Shown piece after piece: positions 18,310 to 39,928 of a stretch of 52,793 nucleotides of DNA. The stretch spans positions 1 to 52,793 of the forward strand of contig JAJTFW010000006.1 in NCBI GenBank assembly GCA_021299095.1, written 5' to 3'. A program made the translations under genes and the position numbers. The stretch's first letter is position 1. Every line of letters begins with the position of its first letter. This stretch comes from Sphingobacteriales bacterium (GTDB taxonomy: Bacteria > Bacteroidota > Bacteroidia > AKYH767-A > OLB10). The notes below the pieces were generated by a model. The model saw only the letters and a list, made by a program, of their open reading frames with translations. It was not told where the DNA came from and did not search any database.

Positions 18310-20565
18310 ATGGACGCTCAATTCACTGCCCGTCAACGAATCCGGCTTGCGCAAGTCATCCGCGAGCATTGGCATATCGTACTATTCTGCCTGCTTCTTT
18401 CGGCAACAATCGCGCAAATTCTCTTATCACTTGTACACCCCGAATTCAAGGCCAAGGCAAGTGTCACTCCCGAACAGCAATGGCAGGGAGGTGAACAAGC
18501 CGTACCCGTCATCGATGTGCGCACGGAAGTAGAGCGCATTGGATCGAGGCCGATGCTAATGAGGGCACTGTCGGCCATCGACGGAAATGCGCGCACCCAT
18601 TCAAGTGCTGGTTTTCTGGGACTTGTTGATGAACCTGATTCGGTTTACCGGATTCAATTCACGGGAGATAAAACTGCGTTCTCAACCCAAACATTCCGTA
18701 TTCGACCAATAGATGCTTCGAGTTTCCTGGTGGATCGCTGGAGTGGGGATCCGACTTTTGAGCATGCCTATGCCTATGGCAGGGAGTTGGAATTAGGTGG
18801 AGTACGATTCCGCATCGATACGATTGGAGGTCGTGAGCAAACAGCGTGTTCCGTTCAGTTGCTATCCGACGAAACCTGGTGTGACCAGCTTTTATCCGGA
18901 AAGCTCGAGGTATCAACGGGCGATGAACAATCGCGCGTGATCCGTATCGAGGTCTGCGAAGAAACCCCTCAACTGGCCTCGGCCGTAGCCAATGCCCTTG
19001 CACATGCGTACATGCATCAGGGCGAGGAGCAACGCGAATCCATGACTGCCCACACCGGAACCCGGATCGATAGCCAACTCGAGGAAGTCAGATCGGTACT
19101 CGACAGTGCCCGCGATGCCTTAAAAGTCTACAGAGGATCGCACGGAATCGTGCAATCGGAGGTACAGCATCAATCAGAATTGAGCGCACTCGGCGAATTG
19201 CAATGGAAACATGTGCAAACCGGCATGCAACTCAACGTACTCGAGCGTGTCAGTGATCACATTCGTACCGGTCGCTCAGTCAACATCGCACTGGCTGATC
19301 TGGATTCACAAACCGAGCAGGTGTTTCGTGATCAATCGGCACAACTCAATACCATAATAAAGGAGCGCCAGGCCGCACTAAGTAGAAACGATGCAGAAGC
19401 AGTGGCTTCTGCCGATGAACGCATTCGCTCTACTCGCGGTGAACTTCAGGAGCAGTTGGGTATGCACCGCCGTCGCCTACTGTTTCAGCAGGATGAACTC
19501 GAAGCCTCCATCAATAAGATGCAGTCCGGACTGGAATCGGCACCAGCGCAGGTAATCGATGAAGACGAATTGGAGAGTCGGGTTGCTTTGTACGAAAAAC
19601 TCGAAGACAGACTCCTTGAACAACGTGCCGAAACCATGGTTGGACTCGGATCGTTATTCAGTACAGGCAGTATTCTGGAGCCTGCACGCGAACCGCTCAT
19701 TCCTGTGTTCCCCATTCCCTGGATGGTTTGGACTGTAGCATTTTCGATAGGCGTATTGGCCGCATTCATTTGGATTCGGAACAGGATCCGAAATAGCAAT
19801 ATCATTCACGTACCTGAGGACCTGTATCAACAGGGAACCATCCCCGTCATCGGCCAAGTCAAGGAATTGAGCCGTGGAGAAAGTGTTTATGCAGCATTCA
19901 CCGCGCTCAGCACACGCATACTGATGCAATCCAGAAACGATAAACCTCTGGTCATCACGATAACAAGTACGCATCCCGGTGAAGGCAAGTCATTCATCGC
20001 CGCTCAGCTTGCTCGCACACTTGCCGCACAAGAAAAACGAGTTGTTCTTATTGATGCAAATACAGTTCGTCCCTCACAGGATGCCTGGTTTGGTTTGCCC
20101 AATGGTGAAGGACTAAGTGATATTCTGACATCCAGGACCAAACTCGATGAAGTCCTTCGTTTCACATCGGTTCCCCGTCTCGAATTGGTGACCAGCGGAA
20201 CCGTCGATCACCCTATTGGACATCTTACCGCCACACGCAAGGCCCAGGATCTGGTCGAGGAACTGCGCGGACGTTATGATGCCGTAATCATTGATACGCC
20301 TGATGTAGGTGAACATACCGATGCAATTCCATTTATGAAGTGGAGTGACCTGAATCTGTATGTGATTCGTGCCGAAAGTAACGGCGATGAACCCGTGGCG
20401 AATGCCGAGGCCGTCAAGGAAGAGTATCGGATTTCTGAAATGCATTATGTGCTCAACGCCATGCGCAGCAGACGCAACCATACCGGACTTCTCGATGCAC
20501 CGAGTGTGGATCCCGATGCAAGCCGAAAACTCATTCCGCAGTTCGCCAACTTCTTTTCATTCTAA
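18310..20565 (+). CDS. Wzc-like polysaccharide co-polymerase with degenerate tyrosine-kinase domain
   Basis: 751 aa. First membrane helix about residues 22-44 (IVLFCLLLSATIAQILLSLV), then a Wzz-type extracytoplasmic region with long coiled-coil helices (about 240-445), a second helix about 467-487 and a cytosolic BY-kinase fold. Walker A is intact (PGEGKS, K560, S561) and Walker B is present (VIIDTP, D662). Walker A' reads LIDAN: D582 is kept but the second Asp is Asn584. The Ex2RxxR oligomer motif is missing (AAFTALSTR), and the C-terminus (SRKLIPQFANFFSF) has no tyrosine cluster. It probably controls chain length or export of a surface polysaccharide with little or no kinase activity. It is followed 8 bp on by an unknown gene and then a glycosyltransferase. 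Confidence 0.85.
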   Translation: MDAQFTARQRIRLAQVIREHWHIVLFCLLLSATIAQILLSLVHPEFKAKASVTPEQQWQGGEQAVPVIDVRTEVERIGSRPMLMRALSAIDGNARTHSSAGFLGLVDEPDSVYRIQFTGDKTAFSTQTFRIRPIDASSFLVDRWSGDPTFEHAYAYGRELELGGVRFRIDTIGGREQTACSVQLLSDETWCDQLLSGKLEVSTGDEQSRVIRIEVCEETPQLASAVANALAHAYMHQGEEQRESMTAHTGTRIDSQLEEVRSVLDSARDALKVYRGSHGIVQSEVQHQSELSALGELQWKHVQTGMQLNVLERVSDHIRTGRSVNIALADLDSQTEQVFRDQSAQLNTIIKERQAALSRNDAEAVASADERIRSTRGELQEQLGMHRRRLLFQQDELEASINKMQSGLESAPAQVIDEDELESRVALYEKLEDRLLEQRAETMVGLGSLFSTGSILEPAREPLIPVFPIPWMVWTVAFSIGVLAAFIWIRNRIRNSNIIHVPEDLYQQGTIPVIGQVKELSRGESVYAAFTALSTRILMQSRNDKPLVITITSTHPGEGKSFIAAQLARTLAAQEKRVVLIDANTVRPSQDAWFGLPNGEGLSDILTSRTKLDEVLRFTSVPRLELVTSGTVDHPIGHLTATRKAQDLVEELRGRYDAVIIDTPDVGEHTDAIPFMKWSDLNLYVIRAESNGDEPVANAEAVKEEYRISEMHYVLNAMRSRRNHTGLLDAPSVDPDASRKLIPQFANFFSF

Positions 20566-20573
20566 TTGAACCG

Positions 20574-21314
20574 ATGCTTCCGTCTTTACGCCAGTACGAT
20601 TTCACGCCCCTAAGCATTCCGGTAACTGCGAACACTGTTTCACCGGATAAGCCAATCCTGCAGGATGCACATGGAAAACAATTGTCGCGTACCCGAATCA
20701 GTTCCTTATTGTTTCGATATTCCGCACAGGTTTATGGAATGGGAATGGAAACCAGACCTGTATCGTCTGTTGTGATTTGGAATTACAGCCTTCGGCAGCT
20801 GGATTCGATTCTTAAGATGATCAAGATTGCCGATCGTCGCCGAAAATCAGATTACATACCCATTTTCCGCTTGTTGAAGCGATTGTCTGGTTCAATCGAC
20901 CCTTCGGCAGAAATCACAGTATCACATGTTCACGGTATGGTTACTCCATGGACCATGCATTATTCCGAATTACGACTGTTTGCACAGGTTTGGGAAACAC
21001 GTTCTAACGCAGTCCCGGTTTTTTTCGATCAATTCCATCACATGTTTTGTGAACTCGTTGTACGTGAACAAAAAGATGCTCAGGCCTGGTTCACCTTCAC
21101 ACGACGTAGCTTCGATAATCTTGCTCAGCGCCGTTTGGCTCATCGGCTCGATGTAGATATGCGCACCCATTTCAGCATGTATGTCTTGTTCATGACTGCG
21201 AACCACCTTCGCCATATCATGGCTCAGCAAGCACCATCGACGACCGATTTACGCCTACTTCGCGCGTGGACCGATATGACCGAAGGTCTTTTGACGGGGA
21301 ATTTCCGTTGGTAA
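20574..21314 (+). CDS. Unrecognised 246-aa protein between Wzc-like and GT4 genes
   Basis: The ATG at 20574 follows the Wzc-like stop by 8 bp, so co-transcription is very likely. No signal peptide, membrane helix or known motif is seen. The first 45 residues look extended and polar. From about residue 46 the chain is mostly helical with many His, Trp, Phe and Arg residues, notably ISSLLFRYSAQVYGMG, SVVIWNYSLRQLDSILKM, VHGMVTPWTMHYSELRLF, DQFHHMFCELVVREQKD and MYVLFMTANHLRHIM. It may be a cytosolic partner of the co-polymerase or an adaptor for export; that is inference from position only. Base composition and codon use look like the neighbours. Confidence 0.7.
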   Translation: MLPSLRQYDFTPLSIPVTANTVSPDKPILQDAHGKQLSRTRISSLLFRYSAQVYGMGMETRPVSSVVIWNYSLRQLDSILKMIKIADRRRKSDYIPIFRLLKRLSGSIDPSAEITVSHVHGMVTPWTMHYSELRLFAQVWETRSNAVPVFFDQFHHMFCELVVREQKDAQAWFTFTRRSFDNLAQRRLAHRLDVDMRTHFSMYVLFMTANHLRHIMAQQAPSTTDLRLLRAWTDMTEGLLTGNFRW

Positions 21315-21336
21315 ACATCCTTTAGTAACCTGCTGG

Positions 21337-21359
21337 CGTACGCTGACGTAAAACGTACG
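21337..21359. repeat. Two CGTACG palindromes 11 bp apart
   Basis: CGTACG at 21337-21342 and again at 21354-21359. Since each is self-complementary, they can form a stem-loop or a paired protein site. They lie in the 63-bp gap before the glycosyltransferase gene. Confidence 0.4.
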
Positions 21360-21377
21360 AATCTACCCCATCAGGAA

Positions 21378-22613
21378 ATGCATCAGCACGCTCCCGTCAT
21401 TCTTGTCAGTGCCTTCTCGATTAATCCCGAAAGCAACGGAAACAACAGTCCATCCTGGAAGCTTCTGGCTCAAATCGGCCGATTCAATCCGCTGATTGTC
21501 GTAACACGTCCGATTTACCGTGAGGCCATCGAGCGAGCGGTCGCAGCGGATGAAGAGCTCCGCACGATGCAGATAACCTGGGTTTGGTTTGATGTCAACA
21601 GTATTCCGAATGCAGTTCGAGGTGCTCGCCTGCACCGAGCCTGGTGGCAACGCGCATTACCGGGATTTGTCTTGAAGCAAAAACTCAGTTTCGATGTGGT
21701 ACACGATATGAGTCCGGGCGCTATCCGAACGCCTTCACGGTTATGGAAACTGGGTAAGCCGTTTGTGTTCGGTCCTGTCGGAAGACAACGTCGAGTGCCC
21801 AAAAATTACCTGATTCATGTATATGGATGGAGGGCCTGGCTCGGAACGGAGTTGCGCTGGAGGGTCGATCAAATCCTGCAAAGCCGCGATAGGGCATTGC
21901 ACAACAGTATGCGGCATGCGAACTACCTCATCACATTCGACCGGGAGGTCAATCATCAGAATTTTGGTTCTCAAGCACCAGTGCTTCACATGCCGGTTGC
22001 CGGTTGTGATTCCGGAATTTCGGAAGCGCATCGGGGTGAGCATTTTACAGTGGTCGCGTCGGGACCACTTCGTCCGGAGGCTGGATTCGATCTTTGCATT
22101 CGTTCATTCGCCCGCTATTATCATCAATTGTCGGGCAACGAACAACTCCGCTCCCAATTGGTTATCATCGGTGATGGACCATTAGCTGCTTATTTGCAAG
22201 GCCTGGCTGCCGAGATGGAAATCAGCTCTGCAGTAAGGTTCATTCCTTGGTTACATGCTACGGATCAGCGCGCCTTATTTACGGAAGCATCTGTTTTCTT
22301 CAATACCGCACATCAGGGCAGGTGTGATCAGTTGTCGCTTGCTTTGTCGTGTGGCCTTCCGGTTGTTTGTTTCCGTGAGGGCGTATGCGGCGATTTTGTC
22401 AGCACCGATTCCGGAGTGACCATCAGACAGGGACGTTACGATACGACCGTAACCCGGTTCTCAGAAGCCCTTCGGCTTCTTCACACCAATCCGACACTTC
22501 ATGCCCGACTTTCCGAGGGTGCACGGCGTTTGTTCAGCCAGCAATTCAGCTGGGAGTCCAAAGGCCAAAAACTCAATTCGATTTACCGTCAATTGACGGG
22601 TAATCCCGCTTGA
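21378..22613 (+). CDS. GT4-like glycosyltransferase lacking the EX7E glutamates
   Basis: 411 aa, GT-B layout: N-terminal Rossmann half (VILVSAFSINPESNGNNSPSWKLL, FDVVHDMSPG, KPFVFGPVGRQRRVP) and C-terminal half (FTVVASGPLRPEAGFDLCIRSFA, SQLVIIGDGPLAAYLQGLA, VRFIPWLHATDQRALFTEASVFF). GT4 enzymes usually carry an EX7E pair before the CG.P motif. Here the segment is HQGRCDQLSLALSCGLPVV, so both glutamates are replaced (Q and L). The protein also has an FGPVG segment seen in other Bacteroidota GT4 proteins. It should transfer a sugar in surface polysaccharide synthesis, but catalysis is uncertain. It lies on the same strand as the Wzc-like gene. Confidence 0.82.
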   Translation: MHQHAPVILVSAFSINPESNGNNSPSWKLLAQIGRFNPLIVVTRPIYREAIERAVAADEELRTMQITWVWFDVNSIPNAVRGARLHRAWWQRALPGFVLKQKLSFDVVHDMSPGAIRTPSRLWKLGKPFVFGPVGRQRRVPKNYLIHVYGWRAWLGTELRWRVDQILQSRDRALHNSMRHANYLITFDREVNHQNFGSQAPVLHMPVAGCDSGISEAHRGEHFTVVASGPLRPEAGFDLCIRSFARYYHQLSGNEQLRSQLVIIGDGPLAAYLQGLAAEMEISSAVRFIPWLHATDQRALFTEASVFFNTAHQGRCDQLSLALSCGLPVVCFREGVCGDFVSTDSGVTIRQGRYDTTVTRFSEALRLLHTNPTLHARLSEGARRLFSQQFSWESKGQKLNSIYRQLTGNPA

Positions 22614-22724: not shown

Positions 22725-25661
22725 ATGAATAAACACAGTTTCCTGCTGATTGTACTGATGTACGTGTTGCTTTTCGAAGCACATGCGCAGCAGGTATCGA
22801 CTCTTGCCGGTTCAGGCGGGCAAAGCGGATTCCAGGATGCCACAGGATCGGCTGCGCGATTCAATGAGCCCACGGCAGTCGCTGCGGATCGTTCCGGAAA
22901 CATTTACATCGCCGACAAACTCAATCACCGTATCAGGCGCTGCAGCCCTTCAGGACAGGTTACAACACTCGCCGGAAACGGGCTGCCTGGTGCAACTGAT
23001 GGACCAGCGGCTACTGCCTCGTTTTATGAACCCTCAGGGATCGCATGCGATACACTCGGTAATGTGTACGTCTGTGACACACGCAATTATAAAATCCGGA
23101 AGATCGATTCCTTCGGTCAGGTAACTACCCTGGCCGGTATCGGTGTGTTTGGTGTTACAGATGGTCCTGCCGCATTCGCCCGTTTCGGTTTTCCGGTAGG
23201 CATTGCCGTTACACAAGATGGGAACACAATCATGGTGTCGGATTACAACACCCATACCATTCGTCGCTTACGGAACGATACGGTGACAACGGTTGCCGGT
23301 GCGGCCTATTTCCAGGGGATATTGGATGGTTCTGGCTCTGCGGCCCGCTTCGATCACCCTTCCGGTCTCGCATTTTCAAGCTCTGGAATCTTATATATCT
23401 GTGATGAATGGAATAACCGGATTCGCACTATGACGCCGGGCGGACAGGTCATCACGCTTGCCGGAACGGGCTTGGCCGGACATGCCGATGGCCCCTTGAA
23501 CCAGGCACAATTCAATCATCCCTCCGGTATATGCCTCGATCCGAATGGAAACGCCTACGTTTCGGATTTGACAAATGAAGTTGTACGTAAACTACAGCCA
23601 TCCACAAATACAGTAACGACCTATGCAGGTGGTATCATGCAGCCGGGATGGGTCGACGGAAGCGTTCCTGCTCCACGATTCAATCAGCCACTTGGCACAG
23701 CGTATGATGTAGTGAACAGACGCCTCCTGGTGGTCGAAAAAGGGAATCATGTGGTTCGCCGCTGCGAACAAATCTCCTCAGTACAACTATCGGTCAATCT
23801 TCCCCTGGGAACTCCTTGCGCCGGAATTGGCTTTACCGTTTCTGCTGCACCACAGGGCCTTTCACAGTACAGTCTTAGCATCAATGGTGCTCCTGCAGGT
23901 ACATCAGCGTCGGGAGTTTTTACGCTGAGCGGATTACCATCCGGGAACTATACGTTCATTGCCCAGGCTGTAGATGCCGCCGGAGCAATCGCTACATCTT
24001 CACCCCTTACCATTCAAATCGCCACTCCGGTTGTTCCGGTATTGAGCAGTTCGGCAGCCTCGGGCCTTTGCCCTGGTGCGATAGGCAGTATACAGGCAAC
24101 AGGTGGTGTTTCATACCAATGGAGCACCGGTGCAACCGGAAGTTCAATCTCTATTCAGGCTTCAGGTACATACACGGTAACCGCCACGGGAACTGGTGGC
24201 TGCACCGGAACATCATCCCTACAGATACAGTCCTTAAGTGCGCCAATAGTTCAAGTTAGCAGCAGCAACGATACCATTTGCCCCTCTTCCCAGGCTTCAC
24301 TTACAGCAAGCGGTGCCAGCATTTATACCTGGTCTACAGGGGCAGTAACTACTACCATTTCAGTTCCCGTCGGAACATATACGGTTACAGGCACTGCATC
24401 GAACGGTTGCACCTCCGTTTCTTCAGCGATGACCATTTTTAATTATCCAACGCCAGTTCCTGTTCTAAATCCGTCCGGTACAATCGTGTTGATACAAGGC
24501 GAGTCGATCGACGTTCAGGCTTCCGGTCTGCAATCCTATCAATGGAGTACCGGAAGCACAAGCTCAAGCATCACCGTCAGTCAATCGGGAAACTACGCTG
24601 TGAGTGGCTTGACTTCCAACGGATGCACTTCCGGTACGGCGACCATACAGGTGAATATCATTACAACAGCGCAACTGATTCAGCAGAACGGCCCAAGCGA
24701 TTTTTGCGAAGGCGATAGTTTGATCCTTCAATCTGTTGTCAGCCCAGGAAATCAATGGAACCTGAATGGAGCACCCATAGTAGGCGCAACACTGGATACC
24801 TACGTGGTGACAGCTTCGGGTGTATACACCGTTTCGGTGCAACGCAATGGTCAAACCATCACGTCAGATCCGATCACCGTTCAGGTTTTTCCAACACCGC
24901 AGGCGCCCCTGTTACAGGATACTGTTGTGTGTTCAGGAACCTCGGCGCTCCTGACGATTGATTCCTTACCTGGATTCCGGTATACTTGGTTCAATCTGGC
25001 CGATCTTTCGCAGGCCGTATCAACATCCTCGCAATGGACTACTGCACCGTTGACACAGACTACACAATGGACGGTCACACTTGAGAGCCCTCAAGGATGT
25101 ATTCTCGAGCAAGCTGCAATCCTAACTGCCCGGGTTGAGGAAATTCCTCAACCCGAATTCACTACCCAGGTGTCCTCGTCAGGAGGGGCATACAGCGTGA
25201 GTTGTAGTTATTCGGGTACTGCATATTCAACACTGGATTGGTCGATGCGTGATCCATCGGGCATGGTGCAGACATCCTCGCTAAGCAATCCGGTTTTCAA
25301 TTGCACGGATGTTGGACAATACACCATTACCTGCGCGGCAACCGGAGCATCAGGCTGTGCAGCAGAAATCAGCCGGAGTATTTACGTTGGACCGTTTACC
25401 AAACCATTCGTTCCTACAACCTTTACTCCGAACGGAGATGGACGTAACGATGTATTTCGACTGCGCGGTGAGCAGTTCAGCGTGGTTACGTTGGAAATCA
25501 TCGACCAATGGGGTAACCGCATGTTTACCGGCGGAACCCAATGGGATGGTCGTTGTGCAGATGGGCAGATCCGAAACGGAACCTACCTCTACCATTTCCA
25601 ATATGCGGATGCATCCAGTCAAACATTTGAGTTAAGCGGCACCATTACGGTTGTCCAATAA
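22725..25661 (+). CDS. NHL-propeller and Ig-like surface protein with CHU_C domain
   Basis: 978 aa from the ATG at 22725, which starts a clear signal peptide (LLIVLMYVLLFEAHAQ). About six NHL repeats (residues 20-350) follow, each with TLAG-G, a DG-A--A-F--P-G segment and the GN-YV-D--N--IR blade core. Next come Ig/PKD-like segments with Y-WSTG and GTYTVT patterns (about 355-880). The end (from about 890) is a gliding-motility-associated C-terminal domain (PTTFTPNGDGRNDVF, IIDQWGN, WDGR, NGTYLYHF). It should be secreted by the T9SS and displayed on the surface, where the propeller may bind a ligand. The next gene, a PorP/SprF protein, begins one base after its stop, the standard sprB-sprF arrangement. 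Confidence 0.9.
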   Translation: MNKHSFLLIVLMYVLLFEAHAQQVSTLAGSGGQSGFQDATGSAARFNEPTAVAADRSGNIYIADKLNHRIRRCSPSGQVTTLAGNGLPGATDGPAATASFYEPSGIACDTLGNVYVCDTRNYKIRKIDSFGQVTTLAGIGVFGVTDGPAAFARFGFPVGIAVTQDGNTIMVSDYNTHTIRRLRNDTVTTVAGAAYFQGILDGSGSAARFDHPSGLAFSSSGILYICDEWNNRIRTMTPGGQVITLAGTGLAGHADGPLNQAQFNHPSGICLDPNGNAYVSDLTNEVVRKLQPSTNTVTTYAGGIMQPGWVDGSVPAPRFNQPLGTAYDVVNRRLLVVEKGNHVVRRCEQISSVQLSVNLPLGTPCAGIGFTVSAAPQGLSQYSLSINGAPAGTSASGVFTLSGLPSGNYTFIAQAVDAAGAIATSSPLTIQIATPVVPVLSSSAASGLCPGAIGSIQATGGVSYQWSTGATGSSISIQASGTYTVTATGTGGCTGTSSLQIQSLSAPIVQVSSSNDTICPSSQASLTASGASIYTWSTGAVTTTISVPVGTYTVTGTASNGCTSVSSAMTIFNYPTPVPVLNPSGTIVLIQGESIDVQASGLQSYQWSTGSTSSSITVSQSGNYAVSGLTSNGCTSGTATIQVNIITTAQLIQQNGPSDFCEGDSLILQSVVSPGNQWNLNGAPIVGATLDTYVVTASGVYTVSVQRNGQTITSDPITVQVFPTPQAPLLQDTVVCSGTSALLTIDSLPGFRYTWFNLADLSQAVSTSSQWTTAPLTQTTQWTVTLESPQGCILEQAAILTARVEEIPQPEFTTQVSSSGGAYSVSCSYSGTAYSTLDWSMRDPSGMVQTSSLSNPVFNCTDVGQYTITCAATGASGCAAEISRSIYVGPFTKPFVPTTFTPNGDGRNDVFRLRGEQFSVVTLEIIDQWGNRMFTGGTQWDGRCADGQIRNGTYLYHFQYADASSQTFELSGTITVVQ

Positions 25662-25662
25662 G

Positions 25663-27693
25663 ATGAAATATCGGATTCTACATAGCTTGTTATTGGCGCT
25701 GTCCTTTTCTGGGGCTACAGCGCAGGATCCACATTTTACCCAGACAGGAACATTGGGTTCATGGTATAATCCGGCATCCATTGCTCCAACAGAAGAACCA
25801 TATCGCTTACAGGCAGCTTATAGAAACCAATGGGCTTCTACAGGCTCGCCATTCATCACACAAGGATTCTTTGCCGAGCGCAGACTAAGTGAACATGCAT
25901 TGGGAGTTAACATCGTGAGTACTGCTGCCGGTCCCGGTAGTCTGAAGCAATTGTCAGCTGGCCTGCAATGGTCATTCACGCGGCAATGGGGGATACACCG
26001 GTTCTCCGGTGGAGTTCACGGAGGCTTTATGCAACGCAGTCTTGAAACCCGTGGAATGACCTTCGATGAGCAATACGATGCCGATCAGGGATTTGATCCA
26101 TCCGTACCAACAGGCGAATCCTTTGCAGCACTGCGGATGTTTTCACCTGATTTCGGTGCTGGATTCCGTTGGCACATTCCGGCCGATTCACGTCGCATGT
26201 TCAGTCCTTTCGCAGGACTTGGTGTGCACCACCTCGCGAATAAGTCTGAACGCTTCCTTGTTAATTCCTATCGCACAGCACAGCGTATGTCGGTAGAGGC
26301 GGGTACAGGAATCGCTTGGAGCGAATCTTTTATGATCCGGACATCCATCCTGCATATGCGGCAGGGAAATTCAAGAGCTTGGCAAATTAATGTGAGTCCG
26401 GAGTGGTTGTTAGAAAACGGAACAGGATTCGGCGGTTCAATTGTTTATCGTGCTCAGGATGCCATCGCGCTGGCTGCACAGGTGCGCTGGAACCGTTATG
26501 GTCTTGGGGTCAGCTACGATATCAATACCTCGGGAATTCAGGGAGGTCCGGGGTCGGTTGAAGTGGTACTGAGTTATCGTCCGGCCGGCAAGCCACGCGC
26601 AGTGAAGCGAATGCTAACGCAACAGCAAACAACCCCTGTGCAGATCACTAAAGCTGCAGTTGCTCCGCCGGAAGAATTGACCGCGCTATCCTTGTTAACA
26701 CACAAAGCAACGCAAACTGCTTTTGACTTAGTTCCGTTAAGCAAACCCGTATCTCCCTTTACGCAGCTTCCGCAGGATACCGAGAGGGTCGAGGTGCACC
26801 AAGCAATGACGCGCCTTCCTTTAACACAAATGTTAATCCATGTTGATGCCACGCCTGAAGGAAGGAATGATGCCATTGTGACGACCATGCCAATTCAGCT
26901 TGAAGAGGAGTCGGCAGAACAGAAGAACCATTTTGAGGAAGAGCGCATAACAGCTGATGGACACGAAAGTGAGCGCGAAGTATTTGAGGTGGTTCCTATG
27001 GTCATGCGAACTATCGATTCGGTAAATCTTTCACGTGTAGAATCACAGCCTGCCGTTGAACTCAAGACCATTCCCACCGCTGAGAATCCCTGGAGGCTTC
27101 CTGTTCAACGTGCAGACGATGAGTTGCTGAATCCGATCGCCTTATTGCCTAGTCAAGTCATTACCATTTCTTCGATTCAGTCTAATTTGATTGAGCCAGT
27201 GGTTGAGGAGCTGAAGACGAGCGATGTTATTGTCTGGAGCGACGAAAAAGCTATCGAACAGATGCCAGTCCGGATGGATATCCACACACCCATGGTACGC
27301 GAAATCCATGCGGAGCCCGTTTCCATTTCGGTAATGAACGCTTCGTTTGCTGCCCCTGCAGAATCGGAAACAACTGAACCGGTGCATCATGCACAGCACG
27401 TTGACGAATCCATCTTGGTGCCGTTTGCCGAAAGCAGTCTTCGTGTGCACGGCTTGAGCAAGCTCGACATCATCGAGCCTGTGCTAGACCGTGTACTTGA
27501 AAATCCCGGACTCAGCATTGAGCTAAGTGGTGTGTCATCCAACGGAAACCTCAACGAACAGCGTTCGGTAATCATTCGACAGATTCTTGTGAGCAAAGGA
27601 CTTGATCCGGGTCGGATCCGGATCGTAAGCCATGAGGCTTCGGGTGATACCGGAAGGGATGCAGTGCGGATGAATATTCTTGTCAATCGGTAG
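25663..27693 (+). CDS. PorP/SprF-family protein fused to an OmpA-like domain
   Basis: 676 aa from the ATG at 25663, one base after the upstream TAA; a TTG at 25651 lies inside the previous gene. Signal peptide about 1-21 (ALSFSGATAQ). The PorP/SprF barrel (about 22-310) shows the family start (DPHFTQTGTLGSWYNPASIAP, YRLQAAYRNQW) and regular strands (GGVHGGFMQRSLE, FSPFAGLGVHHLANKSERF). A 270-residue acidic linker follows, and then an OmpA-like C-terminus from about 585 (VPFAESSLRVHGLSKLD, NLNEQRSVIIRQILVSKGLDPGRI). The peptidoglycan-binding Asp of GHTD is absent (SGVSSNG). Usual PorP/SprF proteins stop after the barrel at about 300 residues. It probably anchors or helps to export its CHU_C partner. 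Confidence 0.85.
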   Translation: MKYRILHSLLLALSFSGATAQDPHFTQTGTLGSWYNPASIAPTEEPYRLQAAYRNQWASTGSPFITQGFFAERRLSEHALGVNIVSTAAGPGSLKQLSAGLQWSFTRQWGIHRFSGGVHGGFMQRSLETRGMTFDEQYDADQGFDPSVPTGESFAALRMFSPDFGAGFRWHIPADSRRMFSPFAGLGVHHLANKSERFLVNSYRTAQRMSVEAGTGIAWSESFMIRTSILHMRQGNSRAWQINVSPEWLLENGTGFGGSIVYRAQDAIALAAQVRWNRYGLGVSYDINTSGIQGGPGSVEVVLSYRPAGKPRAVKRMLTQQQTTPVQITKAAVAPPEELTALSLLTHKATQTAFDLVPLSKPVSPFTQLPQDTERVEVHQAMTRLPLTQMLIHVDATPEGRNDAIVTTMPIQLEEESAEQKNHFEEERITADGHESEREVFEVVPMVMRTIDSVNLSRVESQPAVELKTIPTAENPWRLPVQRADDELLNPIALLPSQVITISSIQSNLIEPVVEELKTSDVIVWSDEKAIEQMPVRMDIHTPMVREIHAEPVSISVMNASFAAPAESETTEPVHHAQHVDESILVPFAESSLRVHGLSKLDIIEPVLDRVLENPGLSIELSGVSSNGNLNEQRSVIIRQILVSKGLDPGRIRIVSHEASGDTGRDAVRMNILVNR

Positions 27694-27730: not shown

Positions 27731-29131
27731 ATGCACCTGAATCAATTCTTCCCAGCCAAATCGTATTCCTTTCTTATCCTGATCGGATTTATTCTGATTG
27801 GTCGGCCTGCACACGCCCAAAGTCAGGACTCTACTCGCATACGCGCAATGTTCGATGAAATACTGCGCAATGGCCGCTGTTACTCTTGGCTCGACTACCT
27901 GGCCAATACCATCGGAGGTCGACTGAGTGGTTCACCCGAAGCTGCGCGTGCTGTCGATTACGTGTATGTTCAAATGAAGCAACTCGGTGTCGACTCGGTT
28001 TGGAAGCAAGAAGTGATGGTTCCCCATTGGGTACGTGGTGGCAAGGAGACTGCCTCAATCCTATCGCAAGGAAAGAAAACCGACTTGCGTATTTGTGCAT
28101 TGGGTGGAAGTGTGGCTACACCCGCTGGGGGCCTCAGTGCCGGGGTCGTTGAGGTGCACGATTGGGATGAACTTGAAAAGCTCGGACGTGAACGCGTAGC
28201 AGGGCGTATTGTGTTCATGAATCATCCCATGAAATCCGAATTCATCAACACGTTTGATGCTTATGGGGAGGCCGGGCGTTATCGTTGGGGTACGGCTATG
28301 CGTGCAGGAAAGCTTGGGGCTGTGGGCGTTATTGTCCGTTCCATGACCTTATCCATGGATGATTATCCCCATACCGGTGCTATGGGTTATGACGATAGTA
28401 TTCCGAAAATACCTGCATGTGCAGTCAGTACGCGGGGTGCTGAAACGCTAAGCAAAAGTCTACGAATGGATGCGGAGTTGAAGGTCACCTTTACGCAAAG
28501 TTGCTCGACCCTGCCCGATGCCCTTTCACACAACGTAATTGCCGAAATCCGTGGCAGTGAATTGCCTGATGAGGTGGTGGTAGTGGGTGGTCATCTGGAT
28601 GCATGGGATACGGGCGACGGAGCGCACGATGACGGAGCCGGAATCGTTCAGTCGATGGAAGTACTACGCGCTATCAAGGCGCTCGGAATCCGACCGAAAC
28701 GCACGATACGGTTTGTCGCATTCATGAACGAGGAAAATGGCGGCAGGGGAGGGAAGCGCTATGCGGAATGGGTAAAGTCAAGTGGTCAGCGCCCGCTGGC
28801 TGCAATTGAAAGTGATGCGGGTGGATTTACGCCACGCGGATTCAGTTTTAAAGGGGATTCGGCCTTGGTTGCAGGCGCACTCACCATGCGTGATCTGTTT
28901 CAGCCTTATCTCATGAATGCCTGGAAGCCGGGATATGGAGGCGCAGATATCAATCACCTCGAAGACCAGGGTACTTTACTAATCGGGTTGAATCCCGATT
29001 CACAGCGTTACTTCAACCATCACCATGCAGAGACCGATACGTTCGATCAGGTGAACAAGCGCGAACTCGAGCTTGGTGCTGCCGGCATGTGTGCTTTATC
29101 CTGGCTACTGGCTGAGTACGGATTGCGGTAA
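27731..29131 (+). CDS. M28 family zinc peptidase (carboxypeptidase Q-like)
   Basis: 466 aa from the ATG at 27731. Signal peptide about 1-30 (FILIGRPAHAQ). A PA-type insert (about 130-255) splits the catalytic domain. Zinc ligands and catalytic residues appear in order: H288 in GGHLDAWDTG, D300 in GAHDDGAG, E334/E335 in FMNEENGGRGGKRY, D362 in ESDAGGF and H431/H432 in NHHHAETDTFD. It is probably periplasmic or secreted and cleaves dipeptides or removes terminal residues. It converges on the omega-amidase gene with 5 bp between stops. Confidence 0.93.
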   Translation: MHLNQFFPAKSYSFLILIGFILIGRPAHAQSQDSTRIRAMFDEILRNGRCYSWLDYLANTIGGRLSGSPEAARAVDYVYVQMKQLGVDSVWKQEVMVPHWVRGGKETASILSQGKKTDLRICALGGSVATPAGGLSAGVVEVHDWDELEKLGRERVAGRIVFMNHPMKSEFINTFDAYGEAGRYRWGTAMRAGKLGAVGVIVRSMTLSMDDYPHTGAMGYDDSIPKIPACAVSTRGAETLSKSLRMDAELKVTFTQSCSTLPDALSHNVIAEIRGSELPDEVVVVGGHLDAWDTGDGAHDDGAGIVQSMEVLRAIKALGIRPKRTIRFVAFMNEENGGRGGKRYAEWVKSSGQRPLAAIESDAGGFTPRGFSFKGDSALVAGALTMRDLFQPYLMNAWKPGYGGADINHLEDQGTLLIGLNPDSQRYFNHHHAETDTFDQVNKRELELGAAGMCALSWLLAEYGLR

Positions 29132-38956: not shown

Positions 38957-39805
38957 TTATTGCTTTGGCTCCATCAATTTGAAAAACTCGTCGAGTTTTG
39001 GAAGAATAACTATGCGTGTGCGGCGGTTCAGTGCACGATCGGCAGGGCTATCGTTGGATGCGACCGGAACATATTCGCCTCGTCCGGCTGCAATCATGCG
39101 CGAAGGATCGACACCATACACGCTTTGAAGGGTACGGACCACGGCCGTTGAACGCAATACGCTGAGGTCCCAGTTGTCGCGAACAGTCGGCGTACTGATG
39201 GCCTTGTTATCGGTATGTCCTTCCACCATGAATTGCATCTCGGACTGCCCCTTAAGGACGGTGGCCACTTTTCCAAGCACTTCTTTCGCACGCGGTGTGA
39301 TTTCATAACTACCGCTGCGGAACAGCATCTTGTCCGAAATGTTGATGAACACTGCGCTGCCCTCGACCCGGATGTTCACATCCTCGTCGTTCACATCCTG
39401 GAGTGCACCCTTCAGGTTCAGTACCAGCGCCATATTGAGCGAATCCTTTCGTGCCATGGCTACCTGAAGGTCTTTGATGTAGGCATCTTTCGAGCTCAAT
39501 GTTTCCATCGACTTGCGGATGCTCTCCGCCTGTGCGGTGCTGATGACCGACATGTCGCTGAGCTGCTTGAGCAAGGCACCTCCGCTGGCTTTAGCTTCTT
39601 CCAGGTCCTTGCGCAGTTTTCGCAATTCAGCATCCTTCTCGTTTTGATCGGCCAGGCAGCGCTGCAGGTTGCTCTCCGTCGTATCAAAATCGGCTTTCAG
39701 TTCACTGTATTTGCTGACTTGTTCCTTGTATTTCTTCTTGCTGACACAGCCGGCGGTCAGGAACAGGGCCACCATAGCGAGTGTGAGGATGCGGGTCATG
39801 GGCAT
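38957..39805 (-). CDS. OmpA family lipoprotein with coiled coil
   Basis: 282 aa from the ATG at 39805 (second ATG at 39799). Lipoprotein signal with lipobox TAGC (Cys20). A coiled coil (about 24-120: KYSELKADFDTTESNLQRCL, LRKLRKDLEEAKA) is followed by an OmpA/MotB-type domain (about 145-265) with the peptidoglycan-binding residues in place: FMVEGHTDNKAI, NWDLSVLRSTAVVR, SRMIAAGRGEYVPV and NRRTRIVI. It should link the outer membrane to peptidoglycan. The terminator at 38910 lies beyond its stop; a TAGCTTTG element lies upstream. Confidence 0.92.
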   Translation of the reverse strand: MPMTRILTLAMVALFLTAGCVSKKKYKEQVSKYSELKADFDTTESNLQRCLADQNEKDAELRKLRKDLEEAKASGGALLKQLSDMSVISTAQAESIRKSMETLSSKDAYIKDLQVAMARKDSLNMALVLNLKGALQDVNDEDVNIRVEGSAVFINISDKMLFRSGSYEITPRAKEVLGKVATVLKGQSEMQFMVEGHTDNKAISTPTVRDNWDLSVLRSTAVVRTLQSVYGVDPSRMIAAGRGEYVPVASNDSPADRALNRRTRIVILPKLDEFFKLMEPKQ

Positions 39806-39819
39806 GTGGATTTGAATTG

Positions 39820-39827
39820 CAAAGCTA
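39820..39827 (-). promoter_or_regulatory. -7 promoter element for the OmpA lipoprotein gene
   Basis: Minus-strand TAGCTTTG, an exact match, 14 bases before the ATG at 39805, so this transcript would have a short leader. Confidence 0.5.
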
Positions 39828-39928
39828 TTACGCTCCCTCACCTCGTCAGGTTTCATCGCTTCATGGTTTTCAACAGCCGATGCGTGTTAAACCGTGCATG
39901 TTTTTCAGGGAGGTATTTACCGAATGCC

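Follow-up and report, generated by a model that had tools for sequence, protein, structure and literature searches.

The window, that is, the whole stretch of 52,793 nucleotides that was analysed, contains an open reading frame with an ATG start that encodes a PorP/SprF barrel, a linker and an OmpA-like end in a single chain of 676 amino acids. A gene for a propeller protein with a type B sorting domain lies directly upstream. The features of the locus are the following.

22728–25661, forward strand: partner gene with NHL repeats, Ig_7 and a C-terminal CHU_C / T9SS type B sorting domain (Pfam, TIGR04131).
25410–25637, forward strand: type B C-terminal domain (CTD) of the partner (TIGR04131, 43.9 bits, cut-off 35).
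25663–27693, forward strand: PorP/SprF-linker-OmpA-like fusion gene (open reading frame; PF11751 and TIGR03519).
25663–25725, forward strand: putative signal peptide, probably residues 1–21 (sequence inspected by eye).
25720–26580, forward strand: PorP/SprF barrel, residues 20–306 (PF11751 match to residues 20–305; AlphaFold2 strands with pLDDT mostly 65–89, loops low).
26581–27387, forward strand: acidic, Pro-rich linker, residues 307–575, without TSP3 repeat and without Cys (composition; pLDDT mostly <35).
27409–27690, forward strand: OmpA-like end, residues 583–676 (family alignment; hhalign and PDB-sequence profile matches; modelled strand-helix-strand-helix order).
27466–27489, forward strand: acidic face of predicted helix 1 with D602, E605 and D609, family-specific and invariant in 20/20 family members.
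27526–27546, forward strand: SGVSSNG where other members have the GHTD loop, seven residues shorter and without the Asp, N627 (27541–27543) kept (alignment).
27562–27564, forward strand: R634, equivalent of the Arg that binds the DAP carboxylate, kept in 20/20 members, two distant fusions and 8/8 OmpA domains of the same genome.
27731–29131, forward strand: M28 peptidase, downstream and a syntenic neighbour in many relatives (Pfam M28, E 2.2e-25; synteny); an anchor role is not implied.

The barrel matches PF11751 (PorP_SprF; E 2.4e-27, 96.6 bits, cut-off 22.3) and TIGR03519 (E 2.5e-38, 132.2 bits, cut-off 90.55). Both scores exceed the curated cut-offs and place the protein among the PorP/SprF proteins. 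The barrel is the only part that passes a Pfam cut-off, and the scan found no TPR, propeller or carboxypeptidase-regulatory-like domain of the PorE type; by its domain set the fusion protein is not a PorE. The 269 residues of the linker include 41 Asp and Glu, 22 Lys and Arg and 25 Pro. Cys is absent from the entire fusion protein. An earlier note on this DNA had described a PorP/SprF barrel with about 270 residues of acidic linker and an OmpA-like end, and the reading frame, the profiles and the composition agree with this description.

The partner gene product matches NHL (E 8.2e-34), Ig_7 (E 1e-10) and CHU_C (E 5.7e-12) in Pfam as well as TIGR04131 (E 5.7e-10). Its stop codon TAA occupies positions 25659–25661 and the ATG of the fusion gene lies at 25663. 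Thus the intergenic gap is a single base, as had been noted earlier, and the fusion gene lies beside a gene for a type B CTD substrate, as expected of a PorP/SprF gene. In the 14 relatives with a complete upstream gene, the corresponding gap ranges from −47 to +9 bases. In L044 the end of the upstream gene is seen, and the contigs of L040, L042 and L045 stop before reaching it. Both distant fusions (L162 and L085) have the same NHL-CHU_C upstream pair. CHU_C was assigned by a Pfam scan in the window and by similarity in the relatives.

The genome of the window encodes SprA (2632 bits) and GldK (606 bits, with an RGCF motif in the sequence), and it contains 18 type B CTD matches and six PorP/SprF matches. 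The main components of the type IX secretion system (T9SS) are therefore present. Judged by position, a CTD-B match directly precedes three of these PorP genes (contigs C26, C67 and C30). No PorP/SprF match other than the fusion was found on the contig of the window. A second type B CTD protein is encoded in the window at 179–2980 (TIGR04131 at 2714–2977).

Glycosyltransferase/Wzz-like genes are found 5' of the fusion in several relatives and also in the window (18310–22613). By inspection of open reading frames, 12 of 18 relatives have a WecA/TagO-like gene (PF00953, scanned in L037 and L162) 3' of the fusion; the window lacks it. These flanking genes place the fusion and its partner at the edge of a polysaccharide cluster.

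The gene was traced in 60 relatives and in 42 genomes of the order. The fusion is present in 19 of the 24 genomes of the taxonomic family to which the window belongs and in none of the 18 other genomes of the order. A survey of 395 genomes of the phylum yielded, among the matches listed, one more genome (G097, from another family) with both parts in one frame of 653 residues; two candidates per genome were scored and the rarity outside the family is therefore approximate. A further distant copy (L085) comes from MAG J057. Sorting of 65 loci gave 20 long fused frames, 44 complete ordinary barrels and one fragment ended by its contig. The fusion is a family trait. The earlier note had set it apart from normal PorP/SprF proteins, which end after the barrel, and had suggested a survey of domain architectures; rarity holds outside one taxonomic family, but within this family the fusion is widespread. 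One g5 genome has a second, contig-cut copy of the N-terminal part (L091, G021 C149), perhaps owing to a strain mixture in the MAG. In the titles, beginnings of abstracts and passages of the open-access (PMC) literature, no description of a PorP/SprF-OmpA fusion was found, and excerpts of PMC9143113, PMC12635249, PMC12618676, PMC7192894 and PMC9581022 describe none.

The C-terminus of the window protein scores 13 bits against PF00691 when taken alone (cut-off 27.2), and the whole protein has no OmpA match at E 0.01. Its homology to OmpA domains is established by the relatives and by sequence profiles. PF00691 matches 13 of 19 family members at E ≤ 0.01. A profile of the Asp-less members aligns with canonical OmpA domains of the same genome (hhalign, 97.6%, E 2.9e-12) and finds Pal among the PDB sequences (E 2.5e-8). 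A further profile match, with canonical rows included in its input, also supports the homology. A chance likeness of the C-terminus to OmpA was rejected on the basis of these orthologues and profiles.

The full-length AlphaFold2 model, built on the 20-row alignment, has a mean pLDDT of 53.5 and contains the strands of the barrel. Residues 583–644 follow the strand-helix-strand-helix order with a block pLDDT of about 58–79. A PDB search with this model returned outer-membrane barrels, including the type 9 translocon entries 8gl6_F and 6h3i_F. Modelling of the C-terminal domain alone resulted in a poor model (pLDDT 58.4), for which a Foldseek search of the PDB gave no match at E ≤ 0.001; PorE and Pal ranked below unrelated folds.

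In PorE, the side chains that touch the peptidoglycan fragment are those of Asp576, Asn584 and Arg591. The Arg binds the carboxylate of DAP in a bidentate salt bridge, and some of the contacts to DAP come from the peptide backbone (PMC7192894). According to this spacing (+8, +15), Asp576 corresponds to the Asp of GHTD, Arg591 to the later Arg and Asn584 to the Asn seven positions ahead of it. In the window protein, GVSS takes the place of GHTD and seven residues of the loop are deleted. The Asp is missing; the Asn (N627) and the Arg (R634) are retained. The replacement of GHTD by SGVSSNG and the retention of the later Arg had been recognized before; the alignment agrees and shows that N627 is kept as well.

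The family alignment (n = 20; the window, 18 relatives and MAG22) shows that this loss is not peculiar to the window. The Asp is kept in 6/20 and lost in 14/20 members, the Asn is kept in 10/20 and the Arg in all. L038, L039 and L045 have Tyr at the Asp position (D-to-Y). In the six g5-type rows, both the loop and the terminal NRR are missing and Lys replaces the Asn. The four g4 rows lack the Asp, and three of them keep the Asn. Asp, Asn and Arg are all present in each of the eight other OmpA domains found in the genome of the window, so a changed wall chemistry is an unlikely cause of the Asp loss. A sequencing or assembly error is unlikely as well: the deletion in the loop preserves the reading frame, and 13 other members are also without the Asp. 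A connection with the loss of the downstream PF00953-like gene was rejected because the g4 and D-to-Y loci retain that gene. A small OmpA-domain protein encoded in the window (38957–39856, reverse strand) has a normal GHTD site, in contrast to the degenerate domain of the fusion.

Judged from the residues of the pocket, the window protein has probably lost peptidoglycan binding. R634 and N627 are still present, so that some residual binding may persist. If the OmpA-like end bound peptidoglycan in a weakened or altered manner, with the Arg, the Asn and the shortened loop's backbone as contacts, the protein would be an ordinary static wall tether. The conservation of R634 in the whole family and of N627 in half of its members is consistent with such binding, as are the salt bridge of the Arg and the backbone contacts to DAP in PorE (PMC7192894). 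Nevertheless, this alternative is unlikely: the window protein lacks both the Asp side chain and the seven loop residues, the g5 copies have also exchanged the Asn for Lys and lost the NRR end, and the Asp of the other OmpA domains of the genome argues against a wall chemistry that makes this residue useless.

The six Asp-keeping family members (L037, L046, L047, L051, L053 and L054) and the two distant copies share a chain of barrel, TSP3-type repeats and OmpA domain with GHTD. The six family members have one or two strict TSP3 motifs, L162 has five and L085, which runs off its contig, has at least nine. Among the 14 Asp-less members, 12 have no strict TSP3 repeat and the D-to-Y copies L038 and L039 have one each. 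Pfam TSP_3 matches 6/19 members at E ≤ 0.01. Genome G350 (L163) has three consecutive genes, apparently for a CHU_C-like protein, a plain PorP and a protein with an OmpA end. To judge from its domain order, the PorP-TSP3-OmpA chain represents the published static anchor of CTD-B, PorP and PorE in one-chain form, and the ancestral state was presumably a wall tether.

A tree was calculated from the barrel and the upstream protein of 20 rows, in five of which the upstream part is mostly or wholly missing. The AU test rejects a single clade of all Asp-less rows (p 3.7e-8), also when the window is left out (p 2.5e-7). A clade of D-to-Y rows, g5 rows and the window is rejected as well (p 0.005); when the window is left out of this clade, the result is borderline (p 0.051). 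Thus, the Asp was lost more than once. Provided that it was never regained, the tree can be read as at least three losses; the starred branches alone force two changes. The row of the window has a long branch and an odd amino-acid make-up, which weakens its position in the tree.

Pairwise dN/dS values (Nei-Gojobori) were determined for the C-terminal domain, the barrel and the linker of the same pairs. For the Asp-less C-terminal domain they range from 0.050 to 0.18 in 15 g5-type pairs and from 0.023 to 0.21 in six g4 pairs, with 0.05 in one D-to-Y pair. The values are 0.016–0.089 for the barrel where computable (two g4 pairs are saturated) and 0.12–0.59 for the linker. The C-terminal domain lies below the linker in nearly all pairs; in one g5 pair it is slightly higher (0.168 and 0.158, respectively). 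Of two control pairs with the Asp kept, one is too close and the other saturated. Accordingly, the Asp-less domain is still constrained in these three groups (22 pairs). The values cover the g5, g4 and D-to-Y groups, and the best relatives of the window are 38–42% identical to it. Compared with L037, the window protein has an identity of 41% in the core of the C-terminal domain, 38% in the barrel and 18% in the linker. None of the 20 members has an internal stop codon.

The residues D602, E605 and D609 occur together in 0/8 OmpA domains of the same genome and in 0/2 distant fusions. In the family, conservation falls on this acidic face of helix 1 rather than on the pocket. Some OmpA-family domains dimerise, and a conserved acidic face outside the pocket would also suit a structural plug or dimerisation piece that stabilizes the barrel and has no anchoring role. 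Such a function is improbable, since in the relatives with the Asp an intact site for wall binding is combined with a TSP3 rod, an architecture suited to reach the wall. A decaying remnant without present function, with the barrel alone being of importance, would fit the erosion of the pocket, the TSP3 repeats and the terminal NRR motif and the fast evolution of the linker, but is highly improbable given dN/dS values far below 1 and nearly always below those of the linker, the invariant helix-1 face and Arg and the uninterrupted frames; for g5 and g4 the evidence already speaks against it.

The fusion is real, rare outside its family and tightly paired with a CHU_C gene; a dedicated carrier or anchor is therefore the natural reading. 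On balance, the protein is probably an outer-membrane carrier and anchor of the neighbouring propeller protein, with a periplasmic module that descends from a peptidoglycan tether and no longer uses the standard pocket. The special anchor proposed in the earlier note is thus retained in part: the fusion and its pairing with a CHU_C gene hold and agree with known CTD-B/PorP pairs, but the arrangement is not unique, and the normal site is kept in the six family members and the two distant copies.

As a carrier and anchor, the fusion protein would act on a propeller protein exported by the type IX secretion system. By analogy with published pairs, the PorP/SprF barrel would collect and hold the type B C-terminal domain of its partner. 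The module at the periplasmic end of the barrel would have begun as a peptidoglycan tether composed of a TSP3 rod and an OmpA domain, and barrel and tether in one chain would correspond to a single-chain PorP and PorE static anchor. The sequences show that both the TSP3 repeats and the Asp loop for DAP binding were lost in the lineage of the window, and on separate occasions in relatives, with the domain retained. Most likely, the OmpA-like domain no longer grips peptidoglycan via the standard pocket and owes its retention to a different contact in the periplasm. The best candidate for this contact is the conserved acidic helix-1 face. A more general and rather unlikely extension is that in carriers of type B surface proteins a built-in tether to the wall repeatedly becomes a module for protein docking, with the DAP pocket dropped and the acidic helix face kept. 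The propeller protein would then no longer be tied to the wall but linked to a different partner in the envelope, and might move or be gated.

A natural single chain of type B carrier and wall-binding domain supports the proposed static anchor of PorP and PorE from an independent, comparative side. Furthermore, orthologues with and without the Asp, in part from a single genus, form a ready-made series on wall attachment. This series bears on a proposal that recent papers leave unsettled, namely that attachment to the wall decides whether a T9SS surface protein is static or moves (PMC7192894, PMC9143113 and PMC12618676, also for the contact side chains Asp, Asn and Arg).

Several known systems resemble the fusion. 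In PG1035-PorP-PorE of Porphyromonas gingivalis, a proposed static anchor, a PorP barrel likewise holds a type B CTD protein and is linked to an OmpA-type domain (PMC9143113), so that the three parts follow the same logic as in the fusion. There, PorP and PorE are separate and PorE has additional TPR, propeller and carboxypeptidase-regulatory-like domains (PMC9143113), whereas in the fusion the OmpA-type domain is joined to the barrel and its Asp is missing. Fjoh_3952, Fjoh_3951 and Fjoh_3950 of Flavobacterium johnsoniae are a CTD-B substrate, a cognate SprF-like carrier and a PorE-like wall protein. This proposed static anchor gives static foci (PMC12618676). It comprises three genes and wall anchoring is proposed (PMC12618676), while in the fusion the wall-type module is located in the carrier and is degenerate.

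SprF, the carrier of the gliding adhesin SprB, is also a PorP/SprF barrel for a CTD-B protein, and its attachment is decided by the periplasmic C-tail, which is bonded to GldK via Cys-X-Cys (PMC12635249). The fusion protein, in contrast, has no Cys, and none of the 20 family members has a Cys at the end of the barrel. A gliding carrier of the SprF type was therefore rejected. Cys-X-Cys is absent from the last 30 residues of all 44 complete non-fused PorP/SprF proteins of the set, 42 of which have a Cys among the last 15 residues, often in a terminal CPxF or CxRY. A tail with one Cys may be a general form of attachment in this part of the phylum. Finally, the C-terminal domains of OmpA and Pal (PF00691) are homologous to the end of the fusion by profile, with the Arg and the Asn conserved. 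The fusion differs from them in that the DAP-binding Asp and its loop are gone and that the acidic helix face is specific to the family.
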